Shown here: positions 2-5,763 of the stretch, one piece after another | Layout of the letters: each line of letters starts with the position of its first letter | How positions within the stretch are numbered: the stretch's first letter is position 1 | NCBI GenBank assembly: GCA_016763915.1 | Contig: JAESSX010000191.1 | Location: forward strand, 1 to 5,976 | Length of the DNA: 5,976 bases | Direction: 5' to 3' | Source: Rhodospirillales bacterium | GTDB lineage: Bacteria > Pseudomonadota > Alphaproteobacteria > Rhodospirillales_A > Casp-alpha2 | Program-made: the position numbers and the translations under genes | The notes under the pieces: generated by a model | Database searches by the model: none | What the model was told of the DNA's origin: nothing | The model's input: only the letters and a program-made list of their open reading frames with translations

Positions 2-1837
2 GCTATCGAGAACTATATGAAAGCTAACGTATATAGAAATAAACTTGGTGAAAAAATTAATCAAGGTAAAAACCTAAACAACATTGGAACTCTTTTTGAA
101 TATCAAGGAAAATATGAAGCGGCCATTGAGCATTTTTTATCTGCATTAAGGATATATGAAGAATCTGGCTATATCACCGGACAAGGTATCGTATTAAATA
201 ACATTGGAATCATCTATATTATTCAGAAGAATTACGATAAAGCAATAGAATATCAAAAGAAATCACTCATCATAAAAGAAGAACAGCATGACACTGTTGG
301 AATGGCAAGCAGTATTGACAATATAGGTATCGCCTATTTATACAAAGATAATCTTGATCAGGCACTGATTTACGGAAAAAGATCAATGGCTATAAGAGAA
401 AACCTAAATGACCAACTGGGATTGTCTAGAACCTTGAATAATGTTGGTAATATTTATTCCAAGCAAAAGAATTATTCAATCGCTTTAGATCTATTCATAC
501 GGGCCTTAAAAATAAAAAATGAATTAAATGATCATCCCGGTACAGTTGTGAGTCTAAACAACATTGGGGAATTATATGCTGCCCAAGAGAAATATGATAG
601 AGCCATTGCTTACTTTACAGATTGCCTGGAAAAAGCAAAGGAGATTGATTTCAAGGAAGCTATTCTGTCTTGTTACACGAATTTAGCACAAGCGCATAGA
701 GCCAAAACCAATTTTGAAATTGCTTTTGACTTCCACGAACGATTTATAAGTTTGAAAGATTCCCTTTTTAATGAACAAAGTACCAGGAGTATGAATGAGA
801 TGCAGGCAAAATATGAATCTAAAAAAAAGGAAAAAGAGATTGAAATGCTTACGAAGAATAATGGCCTTCAGGAACTAATAACTCAACAACAAAAAGATCA
901 AATAAAAAAACAAAAATTATTAATTCTTGGAATCTTTTTCATTTTAGCATTGGCAGTATCTTTAATTTATGTGGTTTATTCACAGTTTAAATTTAAGCGT
1001 AATGCAAATATTGAATTAGAAAGAAAAAATGTCCTTTTGGAACTTACTAATAATGACCTGGATAAAAAAAATAAAAATATTTCTGAAAGTATCAACTATG
1101 CGCAAAGAATTCAGGAAACTATAATGCCTACCCAATCTCACCTTAAGAAAATTTTTCCTGACTCGTTTATTTTTTATAAAGCCAAGGACGTAGTAAGTGG
1201 TGATTTCCCCTGGACAATGAATACCAATGAAAACTTTTTTGCTGCAGCTGTTGATTGTACCGGTCATGGGGTTCCAGGTGCGATGATGAGTATGATCGGT
1301 TATTTTTTATTAAATGATATTGTAGGAGGCAAAAAAGTACAGGACCCTGCTGAAATACTTAATCAACTTCATAATGGCATAAAAGATACTTTGAAACAAG
1401 AGGAGAACCTTGAATCAAAGGATGGTATGGACATTGCCTTTTGCAAGATCAATAAAGGGAAAAAGGAAGTACAGTTTGCCGGTGCCCACAGACCTTTAAT
1501 TTGGCTTCATCAAGGAGAGATTCATGAAATTAAGGGGGATAGATTTCCTGTAGGTGGATTGCAATACTCAAGTAGAGGTAAAGAAATAAGGTTTACAAAA
1601 CACCAGTTAAATCTTGATATTGGTGATTCCATATTTTTCTATTCGGATGGTTTAATAGACCAAATTGGGGGGCAAAATGGAAAAAGGTTCAAAAATGATC
1701 AGGTAAAAGAAATAATATTAACCCATCAAGATAAAACCATGGAAGAGCTGAACGAAATATTTGATCAAACATTTACAAAATGGATGGGTGGCAGTAAGCA
1801 ATTAGATGATGTAATTATGATTGGGATAAGAATTTGA
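2..1837 (+). CDS. TPR-repeat membrane protein with SpoIIE/PP2C-type Ser/Thr phosphatase domain (5'-truncated by window edge)
   Basis: Likely a signalling phosphatase that dephosphorylates Ser/Thr on a partner protein in response to something sensed by the TPR region. The frame is open to the window edge, and the codons before the first ATG (position 17) read AIENY, the second half of a TPR unit, so the true start lies upstream. Counting from that ATG: six TPR units with a 40-residue period (about 17-256, each with an LNNIG-like core), a charged coiled coil (about 258-300), one membrane span (about 301-321), a second short coiled coil, then the phosphatase domain (about 355-606). Metal-site and catalytic motifs are intact: SGDF with D396, DCTGHGVPGA from D413, DGMD 469-472, YSDG with D544, and LDDV with D597/D598. 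SGDF is followed by PW where YW is common; I regard this as a subfamily variant. The C-terminus is complete. The substrate is unknown and no anti-sigma-factor partner gene is adjacent. Confidence 0.9.
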   Translation, partial: AIENYMKANVYRNKLGEKINQGKNLNNIGTLFEYQGKYEAAIEHFLSALRIYEESGYITGQGIVLNNIGIIYIIQKNYDKAIEYQKKSLIIKEEQHDTVGMASSIDNIGIAYLYKDNLDQALIYGKRSMAIRENLNDQLGLSRTLNNVGNIYSKQKNYSIALDLFIRALKIKNELNDHPGTVVSLNNIGELYAAQEKYDRAIAYFTDCLEKAKEIDFKEAILSCYTNLAQAHRAKTNFEIAFDFHERFISLKDSLFNEQSTRSMNEMQAKYESKKKEKEIEMLTKNNGLQELITQQQKDQIKKQKLLILGIFFILALAVSLIYVVYSQFKFKRNANIELERKNVLLELTNNDLDKKNKNISESINYAQRIQETIMPTQSHLKKIFPDSFIFYKAKDVVSGDFPWTMNTNENFFAAAVDCTGHGVPGAMMSMIGYFLLNDIVGGKKVQDPAEILNQLHNGIKDTLKQEENLESKDGMDIAFCKINKGKKEVQFAGAHRPLIWLHQGEIHEIKGDRFPVGGLQYSSRGKEIRFTKHQLNLDIGDSIFFYSDGLIDQIGGQNGKRFKNDQVKEIILTHQDKTMEELNEIFDQTFTKWMGGSKQLDDVIMIGIRI

Positions 1838-2001: not shown

Positions 2002-2964
2002 ATGCATAAAATGAAAGCCTCAATACGTAGAAGATATGGTTCACCAAATCAGATAAAAATTGAGAATATTGAAAAACCTATTTCGAAAGACAATGAGGTA
2101 TTAATTAAGGTTTATGCTACTACGGTCAACAGAACAGATTGTGCAAACCTTACAGCTAAACCTTTTATTATGAGGTTTTTCTTAGGGTTATTTAGACCAA
2201 GAAAAATAATATTAGGGACAGATTTTGCAGGTAAAGTAGTATCAATAGGAAAAAATGTCAACTCATTTAGCATTGGTGATAAGGTCTTCGGTTTTAATGA
2301 CACAGGTTCAGAATCACAAGCTGAATATATAACAACAACTGTAGAAAATTTATTTCCTATTCCGAAAGAGATAGATTATAAACAAGCAGCTGCAAGTTTA
2401 GAAGGGGCTAATTATGCGTATACTTTCATTCATAAAGTAAATATTCAATCTGGACAAAAAATTCTGATAAACGGGGCAACTGGTGGAATTGGTTCTGCTC
2501 TCCTGCAATTTGTTAGACAATATGATGTCAAAATAACAGCCACTTGCAATACAAAAAACATGAAATTAATACAATCTTTAGGTGCTGACAAAATTTATGA
2601 CTACACCAAAGAAGACTTTACAAATGATAATGATAAATATGACTTTATATTTGATGCGGTGGGTAAAAGTACATTTGGAAAATGTAAATCACTATTGAGA
2701 AAAAAAGGAGTTTATATATCGTCAGAGTTAGGACCTTACTCTCAAAATATTTTTTACCCCTTATTGACTTCAATTTCAAGTAAAAAAGTAATCTTTCCTA
2801 TACCTTATAGTAAGCAGAAAACGATACCTTATATTAGTAATCTTTTGGAGAAAGAAAAGTTCAAGCCCGTGATAGACCGAGAATATTTATTAGAAGATAT
2901 ATCCAAAGCTTACGAATATGTAATTACAGGACAGAAAACGGGAAACGTTTTAATTAATGTATGA
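2002..2964 (+). CDS. Zinc-independent NAD(P)H-dependent alcohol dehydrogenase / quinone oxidoreductase-like protein (MDR superfamily)
   Basis: A cytosolic medium-chain dehydrogenase/reductase, expected to use NAD(P)H to reduce a quinone, enone or other carbonyl; the substrate cannot be read from sequence. At 320 residues it has the normal length for the family. The N-terminal GroES-like domain carries the quinone-reductase signature VNRTDC (42-47) and GTDFAG (72-77) where zinc enzymes have GHE-type metal ligands, so no catalytic zinc is expected. The Rossmann nucleotide-binding motif is GATGGIGS (158-165). Family members usually begin MKA, so the ATG at 2011 (M4) is a plausible alternative to the ATG at 2002; no Shine-Dalgarno-like site favours either. 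Two sampled 60-base lines give about 31% GC, the lowest in the window. The gene has about 165 bases of non-coding DNA on its left and structured repeat A directly after its stop, so it is probably transcribed alone. The family call is firm; the function is generic. Confidence 0.9.
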   Translation: MHKMKASIRRRYGSPNQIKIENIEKPISKDNEVLIKVYATTVNRTDCANLTAKPFIMRFFLGLFRPRKIILGTDFAGKVVSIGKNVNSFSIGDKVFGFNDTGSESQAEYITTTVENLFPIPKEIDYKQAAASLEGANYAYTFIHKVNIQSGQKILINGATGGIGSALLQFVRQYDVKITATCNTKNMKLIQSLGADKIYDYTKEDFTNDNDKYDFIFDAVGKSTFGKCKSLLRKKGVYISSELGPYSQNIFYPLLTSISSKKVIFPIPYSKQKTIPYISNLLEKEKFKPVIDREYLLEDISKAYEYVITGQKTGNVLINV

Positions 2965-2975
2965 AAAAAACGAGA

Positions 2976-3049
2976 GCACAACAAAGGCTAAAACGACAAT
3001 AGCTCCCATTCGGTCGCTACTGCGTTTAGCCAAACTGTTAGTGGTAAGC
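2976..3049 (+). repeat. Structured attC-like site A (nested inverted repeat)
   Basis: The order of elements is AAC (2980-2982), 3-base spacer, GGCTAAAACG (2986-2995), TAGC (3000-3003), 12-base loop, GCTA (3016-3019), CGTTTAGCC (3023-3031), 5-base spacer, GTTA (3037-3040), five bases, AAGC (3046-3049). GGCTAAAACG pairs with CGTTTAGCC through nine pairs with one bulged A. The outer AAC pairs with GTT and the inner TAGC with GCTA. An imperfect hairpin with outer AAC/GTT, unequal 3- and 5-base spacers and an extrahelical base is reminiscent of integron attC recombination sites. The same architecture recurs as site B. It has no U-tract, so it is not a normal terminator. The shared structure is seen directly; the recombination role is inference. 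Confidence 0.6.
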
Positions 3050-3165
3050 AAAATAGGAACTAAATAAAAACCTATGAAACAAATAATTCTAGGGCAATAA
3101 CATACGACATTTGCAAGAATAAAACTCATGATTTGGCTGAGATCGTAAAAAGAAAATTTAGTGAA

Positions 3166-4359
3166 ATGAATATAATCAGCTTACAACCCACTGCATCAAC
3201 TGAGAGAATTCAGTCACTTGACTTACTAAGAGGATTTGCCCTGTTCGGCATACTTATAATGAACATCATCTCCTTCTCTAACATAGGGACTGGGTATATC
3301 AACCCCACGTTAGGAGCCGGTTTAGAAGGATACAATGGGTGGATTTATGGGTTCAATCATCTGTTTGCAGAGATGAGATTCATGAGTATTTTCTCGATGC
3401 TCTTTGGAGCTGGTATCCTGATCTTTTCAGACAATGCAATGAAGAAAGGAAAGACAGCCTGGAAATATCATTACCGCAGGATGTTACTTCTGATAGTTAT
3501 TGGATTTATACATGCATACCTCATATGGATGGGTGATATATTGGTAGCATATGCGATCTGCGGAAGTATAGCATTCTTAATGCGTAAGTGCAATACCAGA
3601 ACCTTGTTTATTGTGGGTGGAATCTTTTTCGTAATACCTGTCGTTCTGTCTTTAATGTCTTACTTCTTTACCCCGCAAGAAAAGCTTGAAGAGATATTCA
3701 GGTTCTGGAATCCCACACAGGAAAGTGTGGATTGGGAGATCAGTGCCTACTGCGGGTCGTATATGGATCAAATGTCTCCTCGTATATCCGGCGCTATAGA
3801 ATTACAGACATTGGTTTTCCTTATAGAATATATTTGGAGAGTCTTATCGATGATGTTGCTAGGTATGATCTTATATAGAAAAGGGATATTGTCTGCTCAA
3901 AAAGATAATGCCTTCTATCAAAAACTTCTTCTCATTGGACTAACAGCAGGACTCGTAATATCAGGAACCGGGCTATACAGAGCTTATAACCAAGGCTGGA
4001 ATGGTATATGGTACATGAATGTCGGCCATCATTATAATTACATCGCCTCTCTCTTGATAGCTATAGCGTATATTGGCCTCATCATGCTTTGGAACAAGTC
4101 GAATATCCTGCAAGGCCTGAAATCCAGATTGAAGGCTGTCGGCAGGCTTGCATTCACTAACTATATTATGACTTCTATCATCTGCACTTTCATATTCTAT
4201 GGCCATGGCCTGGGATTATTCGCCACTATGGACAGGTTGCATCATTGGGGTATTATCTTACTAGTATGGGCTTTTCTATTATTCATATCTCCTGTCATTT
4301 TGAAGAAATACAAGAGAGGGCCACTGGAGTGGGCCTGGAGAAAATTGACTTATCTGTAA
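3166..4359 (+). CDS. DUF418 / YeiB-like multi-spanning membrane protein
   Basis: An integral inner-membrane protein of about 397 residues, close to the usual family length. Family signatures in order: RIQSLDLLRGFALFGILIMN at the N-terminus (14-33), FSMLFGAG (76-83), YRRMLLLIVIGFIHAYLIWMGDIL followed by a further span, GRLAFTNY (326-333), and the C-terminal GPLEWAWRKLTY typical of DUF418. By eye there are roughly eight to ten hydrophobic spans. The biochemical role of the family is not settled; it resembles acyltransferase-like membrane proteins and is often discussed in a transport or envelope context, so no reaction is assigned. The ATG at 3166 is chosen because homologues start shortly before the R-I-Q-S-L-D motif; the frame stays open upstream and a TTG at 3133 would add 11 unremarkable residues. 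The gene sits alone between sites A and B, like the body of a single-gene cassette. Its GC content is intermediate (about 39% in two sampled lines). Confidence 0.88.
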   Translation: MNIISLQPTASTERIQSLDLLRGFALFGILIMNIISFSNIGTGYINPTLGAGLEGYNGWIYGFNHLFAEMRFMSIFSMLFGAGILIFSDNAMKKGKTAWKYHYRRMLLLIVIGFIHAYLIWMGDILVAYAICGSIAFLMRKCNTRTLFIVGGIFFVIPVVLSLMSYFFTPQEKLEEIFRFWNPTQESVDWEISAYCGSYMDQMSPRISGAIELQTLVFLIEYIWRVLSMMLLGMILYRKGILSAQKDNAFYQKLLLIGLTAGLVISGTGLYRAYNQGWNGIWYMNVGHHYNYIASLLIAIAYIGLIMLWNKSNILQGLKSRLKAVGRLAFTNYIMTSIICTFIFYGHGLGLFATMDRLHHWGIILLVWAFLLFISPVILKKYKRGPLEWAWRKLTYL

Positions 4360-4411
4360 TTGAACGTGAACCCAATTTTATATAAAAAACTAAAGAAGAG
4401 CGAAAACCAGC

Positions 4412-4486
4412 GACTAACAATGGCTAATAAATCATAGCTGCGCTACGGGACAACAATGCTTTTTAGCCGGAACGTTATAAACAAGC
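4412..4486 (+). repeat. Structured attC-like site B (second copy of the same architecture)
   Basis: The order of elements is AAC (4416-4418), 3-base spacer, GGCTAA (4422-4427), TAGC (4435-4438), 3-base loop, GCTA (4442-4445), TTAGCC (4463-4468), 5-base spacer, GTTA (4474-4477), five bases, AAGC (4483-4486). Every element of site A is present in the same order, with identical spacers between AAC and GGCTAA (3) and between TTAGCC and GTTA (5), while the internal loops differ in sequence and length. Conserved arms with a variable centre are the hallmark of a recombination-site family more than of a copied transposable repeat. Site B lies in the same orientation as A, downstream of the DUF418 gene, and GTT-to-GTT spacing is 1437 bases. 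The function is inferred; alternatives are an mRNA 3'-end stabiliser or another Bacteroidota intergenic repeat. Confidence 0.6.
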
Positions 4487-4548: not shown

Positions 4549-5763
4549 ATGACTAAACAAGAAAAAAAAGAGGTGACGATTGTAGGTGGAGGTAGCAGTG
4601 CTCATATTTTGATTCCATTTCTTTCTGGAGCGAGTTTTACCGTCAACATTCTCACACGAAGACCTAAGGAATGGTTCTCTAAGATCGATCTTCAATTGCA
4701 CTCGATTCACGGGGAAATCCAGGAGGAGTTTAGTGGTTCCCTGACGAAAATCAGTGACAATCCGACTGAAGTCATTCCACAGGCAAGTTTTGTGATTATA
4801 TGCATGCCGGTATGCAAATATCGTATTGCTCTTCATGGTCTGGCGCCACATCTTGCGAAAGACAAAGAGGTGTTTGTTGGGACCATTTATGGTCAGGCAG
4901 GATTTAACTGGATGGTTGATGAGATCAAGAAAAAGTTTGATTTGAGCAATATCACTACCTTTGCCATCGGCTTAATTCCGTGGATTTGCCGGATCATTGA
5001 ATATGGTAAGGTGGGAGTCACCTATGGTTGTAAGGAGTTTAATGTTGTGGCAGTATCGCCGCCGAACCGTTTCTCTGAACTCAATAATCTTTTTTTGAAA
5101 AATATTTGCGAGCGATGGCTAAATAAAGGGCATTTCCGACAAGCCGACAATTTTTTGTCATTAACTCTGTCTGTCGACAACCAAATCATCCATCCATCGC
5201 GTTGCTACGGTTTGTTTCTCAAATACAACGGGAAATGGGCGAACAAAGAAGATATTCCCTATTTTTACCGCGACTATGATCAAAAATCAGCCGACCTTCT
5301 ACAGGAATTAGACGCAGACTACTCTAAAATCCGAGAGGCCATCAAGATAAAATATTCTGAGTTTGATTTCCAATACATGCTTGATTACCTCGGTCTTGAG
5401 CGACTATCATACCGATCGGAAAACACCGACATTCGCGAATCATTCACGACATCACCGACGTTGGGAGCCATCAAACCACCCACCATTCAATTGGAAAGTG
5501 GCGAATGGATCATAGACAAGGATCATCGCTTCTTCACAGACGACATTCATTATGGCCTATGTATTGCAAAGTGGATTGCTGACCAACTATTTTTGGACGT
5601 TCCCACCATTGACAGTATCATTGACTGGGCCCAGCAATTGCGCAATGAGAAAATCATCGAGGGAAATAAATTGTTATTGGGCAGCGAAAGCCTGACTACG
5701 GAATTTATGTCCGGTATTCCCCCGGTGTATGGACTCAACAGCATCGATGACATACTGGACTAA
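4549..5763 (+). CDS. Opine dehydrogenase (NAD/NADP octopine/nopaline dehydrogenase family)
   Basis: Expected to join an amino acid and a 2-oxo acid by NAD(P)H-dependent reductive condensation, or to run the reverse oxidation, in the cytosol. Its 404 residues match the family. The N-terminal Rossmann domain shows VTIVGGGSSAH (9-19), corresponding to the family GGGxxAH-type nucleotide loop. A central segment has GLIPWICR, like the family's G-x-x-PW-x-C-R stretch. The C-terminal domain has VDNQIIHPSR with the expected catalytic His at H215, and RFFTDDIHYGL, where D332 is the likely partner Asp. The reading frame is intact and begins after a Shine-Dalgarno-like site. Two sampled lines give 47-50% GC against about 30-43% in sampled lines of genes 2 and 3, suggesting acquisition from another lineage. 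Neighbours are site B on the left and a tRNA-Ser remnant on the right; no nicotianamine-synthase-like or exporter gene of a metallophore cluster is visible. The family is firm; the substrates are unknown, and octopine or nopaline should not be assumed. Confidence 0.87.
   Translation: MTKQEKKEVTIVGGGSSAHILIPFLSGASFTVNILTRRPKEWFSKIDLQLHSIHGEIQEEFSGSLTKISDNPTEVIPQASFVIICMPVCKYRIALHGLAPHLAKDKEVFVGTIYGQAGFNWMVDEIKKKFDLSNITTFAIGLIPWICRIIEYGKVGVTYGCKEFNVVAVSPPNRFSELNNLFLKNICERWLNKGHFRQADNFLSLTLSVDNQIIHPSRCYGLFLKYNGKWANKEDIPYFYRDYDQKSADLLQELDADYSKIREAIKIKYSEFDFQYMLDYLGLERLSYRSENTDIRESFTTSPTLGAIKPPTIQLESGEWIIDKDHRFFTDDIHYGLCIAKWIADQLFLDVPTIDSIIDWAQQLRNEKIIEGNKLLLGSESLTTEFMSGIPPVYGLNSIDDILD

Follow-up and report, generated by a model that had tools for sequence, protein, structure and literature searches.

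The stretch of DNA considered here, referred to as the window, comprises positions 1-5976 of contig JAESSX010000191.1 (assembly GCA_016763915.1), probably all of that contig; in it four genes follow one another on the + strand and two short, structured sites, A and B, enclose the third of them, encoding a DUF418 membrane protein (Table 1). The sites had been interpreted, in a reading of the sequence alone (the sequence-only reading), as attC-like elements delimiting a single-gene cassette of the kind found in integrons. The study of related loci supports this, and we give a probability of roughly 0.8 to A and B being attC-type recombination sites, with positions 3038-4474 a gene cassette of an integron-like system. 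These limits are set by a boundary rule derived from relatives. Since the window is short and carries no integrase, its cassette was judged through those relatives, and by homology the case for it is strong.

Table 1. Genes, attC-like sites and putative cassette of the window
Feature	Position	Strand	Remarks
TPR-SpoIIE phosphatase gene (5' open), upstream flank	2-1837	+	closest listed relative 89%, Bacteroidia metagenome-assembled genome (MAG)
Zinc-type alcohol dehydrogenase (ADH) family gene	2002-2964	+	PF13602, PF08240; stop 15 bp before site A
Site A, attC-like	2980-3040	+	R'' AAC 2980-2982, spacer AAA, L'' GGCTAA 2986-2991
Site A, 3' half		+	L' TTAGCC 3026-3031, spacer AAACT, R' GTTA 3037-3040
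DUF418 membrane protein, cassette gene	3133-4359	+	PF04235, E 2.3e-41; TTG start 3133, ATG 3166
Site B, attC-like	4416-4477	+	R'' AAC 4416-4418, spacer AAT, L'' GGCTAA 4422-4427
Site B, 3' half		+	L' TTAGCC 4463-4468, spacer GGAAC, R' GTTA 4474-4477
Putative one-gene cassette, 1437 bp	3038-4474	+	G/TT of A to G/TT of B (slash, breakpoint)
Octopine/nopaline dehydrogenase family gene, after site B	4549-5763	+	PF02317

Both sites are present on the + strand with the architecture previously described, and the pattern AACAANGGCTAAN{20,50}TTAGCCNNANNGTTA, derived from A and B, matches the window twice and none of 200 dinucleotide shuffles. Each site lies 3' of a stop codon (15 bases after that of the ADH gene at 2964, and 56 after that of DUF418 at 4359), and the GTT-to-GTT spacing around the one gene, when measured again, was 1437. 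The loop sequences differ, as had been stated, and the spacers, said to be identical, are so in length (3 nt and 5 nt) but not in letters (AAA/AAT, AAACT/GGAAC). Folded as single-stranded DNA (ssDNA), site A is better than its shuffles (z -2.7 for the top and -2.8 for the bottom strand). Under the covariance models R1 and R2 of the sites, with A and B in both training sets, A scores 73.5 and 66.5 bits and B 73.9 and 71.7 bits, respectively. Moreover, site A is identical in 55 of 61 aligned columns to a site of a Flavobacteriaceae MAG (locus L026), and site B in 57 of 62 to sites in two loci, L028 and L054 (Croceivirga lutea). No sites beyond A and B were found in the window with R2 at E<=1, and Rfam gave no match there at its gathering scores. 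With two sites less than 4 kb apart (1437 bp) and no integrase, the window would, as far as its mere 5976 bp can tell, look like a cluster of attC sites lacking integron-integrases (CALIN), although many clusters in relatives do have an integrase, one without the IntI-specific region.

The two sites are members of a wider family. The pattern AACAANGGCTAAN{25,55}TTAGCCNNANNGTTA was found in 33 genome stretches, 32 of which are titled as Bacteroidota lineages (named taxa include Maribacter, Roseivirga, Aquimarina, Rufibacter, Croceivirga, Crocinitomix and Salibacter), which agrees with the earlier suggestion of a distinct Bacteroidota site family. The sole hit from elsewhere (L027) and L016 were excluded from training by eye as poor fits, with E values under R1 of 0.12 and 0.25. 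In an alignment of 41 sequences (A1) the ends are conserved and the loops variable, and in 32 genome sites the conservation reaches beyond AAC/GTT, being roughly AAACWR..CY before AAC and GTTAGCRRYAAT after GTT. A further alignment (A4; 96 rows, 93 distinct), fitted to its own model and hence biased towards it, shows pairing in 93.1% of cells, compared with 77.7% for shuffles and 20-44% for slid versions, while 157 cells are altered on both sides and the covariation score is 0.349, compared with 0.085 and at most 0.037, respectively. Other arm sequences (GTGTAT, GTATAA, TTGTAT, GCATAA) occupy the same frame. A generic scan, no test of pairing because it demands exact arms, and among whose related sites some chance matches are possible, gave 100 distinct sites: 24 have a one-sided extra base, always in the 5' arm and never in the 3' arm, 31 have a mismatch, one is perfect and 44 are of another form. 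The family thus consists of imperfect palindromes with AAC/GTT ends, paired arms and asymmetric extra bases, as attC sites do, and the extra bases of the 5' arm are reminiscent of the extrahelical bases which the I2 patch reads in the integron integrase IntI. The scores of R2 on loci found with R1 are not independent, since R2 was trained on those sites; the genome censuses, the scans of integrase regions and the Bacillota control are more independent tests. In 395 Bacteroidota genomes, drawn evenly, R2 found sites in 30 (two of them, G012 and G017, supplied training sites), a lower bound in view of the coarse first look, and in Bacillota, the phylum of G424 and negative control, in none of 199 genomes. 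A short, 47-nt version of the site is seen on 21 of 23 IMG/VR contigs filed as viral (L001-L015, L017-L022), with an array on L006; either phages carry cassettes or host DNA has been misfiled.

Model R2 revealed multiple sites in many loci, nearly always on the same strand within an array, as in Rufibacter glacialis (L039), with seven sites 520-710 bp apart, or in L107, with five. Cassette statistics were drawn from 22 loci chosen for at least two sites, the window included and other multi-site loci (e.g. L033, L105, L046, L115) not taken in, which provided 78 adjacent pairs 120-2500 bp apart. In 74 of these pairs the longest open reading frame (ORF) runs on the strand of the sites, in 2 it runs on the opposite strand, and in 2 there is none. 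At the median, a cassette is 976 bp long, 12 nt separate the stop from AAC and 26 nt separate GTT from the start, which is the compact layout of gene cassettes. These same-strand tandem arrays bear out the view of attC-like sites delimiting single-gene cassettes. In one array (L168 2869-18274) the ten cassette genes include a serine beta-lactamase/esterase fold (PF00144), two SUKH proteins, an RDD protein, an alpha/beta hydrolase and a DUF6985 protein, and four of the ten have no Pfam family.

The boundaries of the cassettes could be read from repeated or shared units. One array of genome G013 contains two copies of a cassette of about 1.39 kb, the first 1001 bp being identical; the identity begins at GTTATAAACAATG of attI and ends after ..AAAACGTT, as compared over those 1001 bp and at both ends and not base by base in the interior. 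The first cassette of R. glacialis has a copy on another contig (92.7% over 559 bp), the match starting at GTTATAGGGC, 144 bp downstream of the integrase stop codon, and a cassette common to a Flavobacteriales MAG (L109) and C. lutea (L054), 84% identical, begins at GTTGTATG. Furthermore, two contigs of the viral collection have a common 306-bp unit and diverge just after CCGTTATA. At the attI side, G056 and G084 have an identical integrase start, leader and attI up to ..GTATACATAAGTTG, with dissimilar first cassettes directly after ..AAGTTG, and G173 and G157 agree as far as ..TGTTG, beyond which they diverge. The junctions of these four cassette pairs and two attI pairs therefore lie at G/TT or a few shared bases off, one far end excepted. 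The sequences show that cassettes of the relatives have been acquired, duplicated or rearranged, the breakpoints falling at G/TT or next to it, and that their arrays start at an attI, where the first cassette is inserted, next to a tyrosine recombinase akin to IntI and devoid of I2; both points speak for the cassette reading. Two further repeats were noticed. In Portibacter lacus some 435 bp of L041 recur, at 91-93%, in five positions of L114 (12762-18459), on the integrase contig. In Cytophagales Alg240-R148 a 545-bp stretch of the integrase gene is common to L104 (15192-15733) and L105 (12808-13352), at 98%, these being two copies of the integron-like locus.

The sequence-only reading had proposed to look for a tyrosine recombinase with the integron-specific patch; a recombinase does stand beside the arrays, but the patch is missing in it. 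In the first set, TIGR02249 (integron integrase) was over its cut-off in 1 of 30 site-bearing genomes, an absence which is meaningful because patch-bearing IntI of Bacteroidota (n=3) score 427-437 bits in a single stretch. The best recombinase below that cut-off often adjoins the sites. All ten array-side recombinases tested combine PF13495 with PF00589 and match TIGR02249 in two stretches, skipping its positions from roughly 180 to 238. The distance from GKGxKDR to HxLRH is 65-66 residues in 32 array integrases and 71 in one (33 measurable of 50), compared with 106-108 in IntI, of which five of seven were measurable (the extraction of motifs and tree rows missed 2 of 11 Xer and 3 of 10 IntI stretches). 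The array integrase is about 41 residues shorter than IntI at the position of the I2 patch and so falls outside the IntI type. For the ten tested, NF040815 ('site-specific tyrosine recombinase/integron integrase') ranks first or second among the models with 206-244 bits, four of them passing its 220-bit cut-off. A profile of the array integrases (A6) reached at least 256 bits in 112 of the 395 Bacteroidota genomes, namely in 19 of the 30 with sites and in 93 of the 365 without a detected site. Of the site genomes, 28 had contributed nothing to the training sets. An A6 match above 270 bits is present in 17 of them, other listed matches being at most 197, and in 10 of the 17 the integrase shares a contig with a site less than 12 kb away; a smaller search raised this to 14 (adding G084, G114, G255 and G333, and not G137, G319 or G374).

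These data also bear on the possibility that the sites are true attC sites moved in trans by a patch-bearing IntI encoded elsewhere, the neighbouring patch-less recombinase being incidental. In fact, the A6 match is split by a patch-sized insertion in 9 of the 28 new site genomes (L187-L195), and three of the split-match proteins are those scoring 427-437 bits with TIGR02249. Nevertheless, the rarity of TIGR02249 matches in the first set, the finding that none of the three listed A6 matches of G164, where 13 sites at E<=0.01 adjoin a patch-less integrase, carries a patch-sized insertion, and the location of the attI and first-cassette differences directly beside the patch-less gene make such an arrangement improbable. 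As L187-L195 illustrate, several Bacteroidota genomes also hold a genuine patch-bearing IntI.

The orientation of the sites was equally consistent. All 85 sites detected at E<=0.01 in integrase regions point away from the integrase: 17 of them in 8 of 20 integrase-centred regions from 18 census-negative genomes (L147-L166), and 68 in 15 of 18 regions from positive genomes (L167-L185 minus L178). The 11 matches of L178, all on the minus strand, were excluded, that stretch having no integrase, and L097-L116 stand outside the count. The side of the array is independent of locus choice for L147-L166 alone, since the other regions were cut at known sites. Weaker rows (E 0.01-1) point away in 17 of 18 cases, that of L171 (10499-10552, E 0.49) pointing towards the integrase. 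In these regions, where the integrase is long (356-395 aa, 16 loci) the array lies 3' of it and is co-oriented, and where it is short (280-302 aa, 7 loci) the array lies 5' of it and is divergent, as in class 1 integrons, a rule of length which is broken by L097 and L106 (277 aa, sites 3') and, in Bacillota, by L232. In the chromosomal integrons of Treponema, as described in sections of PMC3607928, the integrase is likewise co-oriented with the cassettes and transcribed toward attI.

Single genes in one orientation (74 of 78 ORFs; 85 of 85 sites) are not the pattern of sites at core-gene ends in both orientations which, according to the sequence-only reading, would have told against mobility. 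The sites could otherwise be 3'-end RNA elements, i.e. terminators or processing hairpins with no link to mobility, as their position close after stop codons and their covarying hairpins would suit. That explanation is, nevertheless, very improbable, given the conserved GTTA with its flanking motif, the lack of an Rfam match in the window, the arrays beside integrases from which all sites point away, and the breakpoints at or beside G/TT.

A working scheme for the cassette system can be drawn by analogy with IntI. The integrase would pair attI with the folded strand of attC and exchange strands between them at G/TT, a circular cassette being inserted at attI and excision taking place between attC sites. 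One-sided extrahelical bases would be tolerated or read without I2, perhaps by N-terminal units which the long integrases have and the short ones lack. Pfam assigned no family to the N-terminal extension of the tested integrases. In a predicted structure of a long integrase (mean pLDDT 83.6, pTM 0.42), two beta-beta-alpha-beta-beta-alpha units precede the usual fold; the best Foldseek matches of the whole model are an archaeal Xer, XerA and IntI4, all listed rows being recombinases. Inspection by eye of long integrases (L024 3196-4617 on the + strand, L100, L113, L101, L107) suggested one to three such units with invariant tryptophans, which are candidates for recognising folded DNA. The window itself would be part of one of the arrays, or else a cluster lying apart from them.

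Alternatively, the integrase might read the sites as double-stranded inverted core sites in the manner of Xer, the arms being paired binding sites. The integrase lacks I2, its nearest solved structures are those just named, some attI are short palindromes by eye, and site B folds poorly, all of which would fit. Nevertheless, dissimilar arms occur within one array with pairing kept (GGCTAA and GTATAA types in L039), and the extra base of the exact-arm sites, related as these are and with possible chance matches among them, is confined to the 5' arm, so that we consider this mode of recognition rather unlikely.

Several observations weigh against the cassette interpretation and have to be set beside it. 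Site B folds no better than its shuffles (z +0.96 and -0.35), and two of five covariation measures were like shuffles (double-change pairs 110/500, further pair types 69/500). No integrase or attI lies on the 5976-bp window, whose distances (stop to AAC 56 nt, GTT to start about 95-128 nt) exceed the medians of the relatives. The cassette common to L109 and L054 has its far end at the R'' box, before the hairpin, and not at GTT. The integrase and the sites are not always found together, the former being present in 93 of 365 genomes without a detected site and undetected in 11 of 30 with sites, while R2 at E<=0.01 found no site in 15 of 38 integrase regions. Deletion of I2 abolishes the activity of IntI1 (Messier and Roy, as cited in a section of PMC7790495). 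Finally, DUF418 homologues at E<=1e-60 occur in 14 of the 395 genomes, 37-46% identical, and none of these 14 loci (about 4 kb each) has a site; a relative that had gained or lost the same cassette was not found. A search with tblastn of the four window genes against the collected loci gave two weak hits (29% for DUF418 in L177, 36% for ADH in L176), and together with the site-less DUF418 loci this leaves the window cassette not traceable; plasmids hold DUF418 homologues below 60% only. As a side observation, the exact DUF418 protein (P0001) is listed with a 10,304-base contig and the SpoIIE protein of the window with a 5976-base contig; the former is perhaps the same cassette in another context.

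The window sites might also be relics, that is, a cassette cluster no longer served by an integrase. The 5976 bp without such a gene, and the site-bearing genomes in which an integrase of this type went undetected in coarse first looks, point that way. Both sites, however, keep the conserved positions, with 66-74 bits under models trained on them among others, and the contig is too short to judge; decay is possible, though we incline against it.

By strict definition the system is not an IntI integron, because its integrase fails the patch test, although it works like one. The IntI integrons (class 1, Vibrio and other chromosomal ones) share with it the R''-L''-loop-L'-R' organization of attC with AAC/GTT, one-gene cassettes in tandem arrays reading away, attI beside the integrase and the G/TT breakpoint; they differ in having I2 and other site sequences, and the integrase found here is often N-terminally extended. 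The canonical features used in this comparison are in part general background on integrons. Others are set out in sections of PMC4792948. As far as its sequences indicate, the system is a new, patch-less integron lineage.

A similar integrase exists in Bacillota. Profile A6 matched at E<=1e-60 in 24 of the 199 genomes, 18 of them with at least 256 and up to 396 bits, and the motif distance is 65-67 residues in the 13 measurable of 17. Spo0A, found in 53 of 61 genomes of the control phylum, agrees with its being Bacillota; FlaA, absent from all 61, shows little by itself since it is absent from the controls too. In the integrase regions of Bacillota R2 gave no site at E<=5, while self-comparison disclosed different attC-like repeats, e.g. 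TAACACGATTGTTTGCG...CGCAAACAACGGGAACGTTATMTGAAAT, on one side of the integrase in five aligned regions (L229, L231, L232, L233, L234), the other 13 of the 18 regions having 0-8 listed repeat pairs. Contamination is unlikely in G476, since integrase and array lie on a 3.17-Mb contig with Spo0A. The Bacillota repeats are longer than the Bacteroidota sites and form arrays next to the patch-less integrases (L221-L238), for example at 11255-18381 of L229, 9130-12848 of L234 and 396-8812 of L231.

In two trees (66 and 67 rows) the IntI (7 and 6 rows) and the Xer (9 and 9 rows) were each set apart by a branch (100/100 and 100/99), IntI and the patch-less integrases together were split from Xer (100/99), and the patch-less rows were grouped with 69/89 (Bacteroidota alone) and 83/84 (with Bacillota, 16 rows having been thinned for speed or long branches). 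XerA, XerC and XerD share with the patch-less integrases the fold and the lack of a patch; the tree, however, separates them, as judged from Bacteroidota Xer rows, and the patch-less enzymes adjoin attI/attC arrays. The latter are near kin of IntI, either as a sister lineage or as an unresolved grade, and may have lost I2 or never have had it; both the Xer and the IntI rows of these trees come from Bacteroidota genomes only. We tentatively entertain, at somewhat less than even odds, a second integron lineage comprising at least Bacteroidota and Bacillota, sister to IntI, which never had I2. AttC-like sites and cassette arrays would then be older than I2, the chicken-and-egg paradox of integron origin would be dissolved, and both phyla would look integron-poor only because surveys require the patch.

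Patch-requiring surveys should indeed miss such systems, whose integrase lacks the IntI-specific region. IntegronFinder requires an IntI-specific profile (PMC9668308), and PMC2426708 selected patch-bearing genes alone, with Spirochaetes among the holders. For Bacteroidetes, the corresponding sections of PMC9024848 (IntegronFinder 2.0) give only In0 earlier and then a complete integron in Salinibacter, with a single complete integron in Firmicutes, and the attC models described in part of PMC8352920 are for 11 taxa, Bacteroidetes not included. I2 and its origin are treated in portions of PMC4792948 and PMC7790495, while PMC8138268 mentions some subgroup members without the insertion, arrays not being linked to them in the part covered. 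The portions covered of open-access PMC full text, a scope which leaves out subscription journals and preprints, yielded no report in which a patch-less integrase heads a cassette array. Natural cassette arrays beside I2-less integrases make the question of I2 directly testable. Moreover, the integron map may change, since integrases of this type are present in 112 of the 395 Bacteroidota genomes and known in part of these to head arrays, and the capture of cassettes may be frequent in bacteria to which hardly any has been ascribed.

Regarding the neighbours of the DUF418 cassette in the window, the octopine/nopaline dehydrogenase gene may be flank, because no site follows it there. The ADH gene is perhaps the preceding cassette; no site lies upstream of it between 1838 and 2001. 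By eye, positions 1874-1885 (GTTTAAAACAAA) resemble a cassette start, with AA after GTT at the distance usual for one, and an ADH cassette inserted downstream of the SpoIIE gene could have its boundary there.

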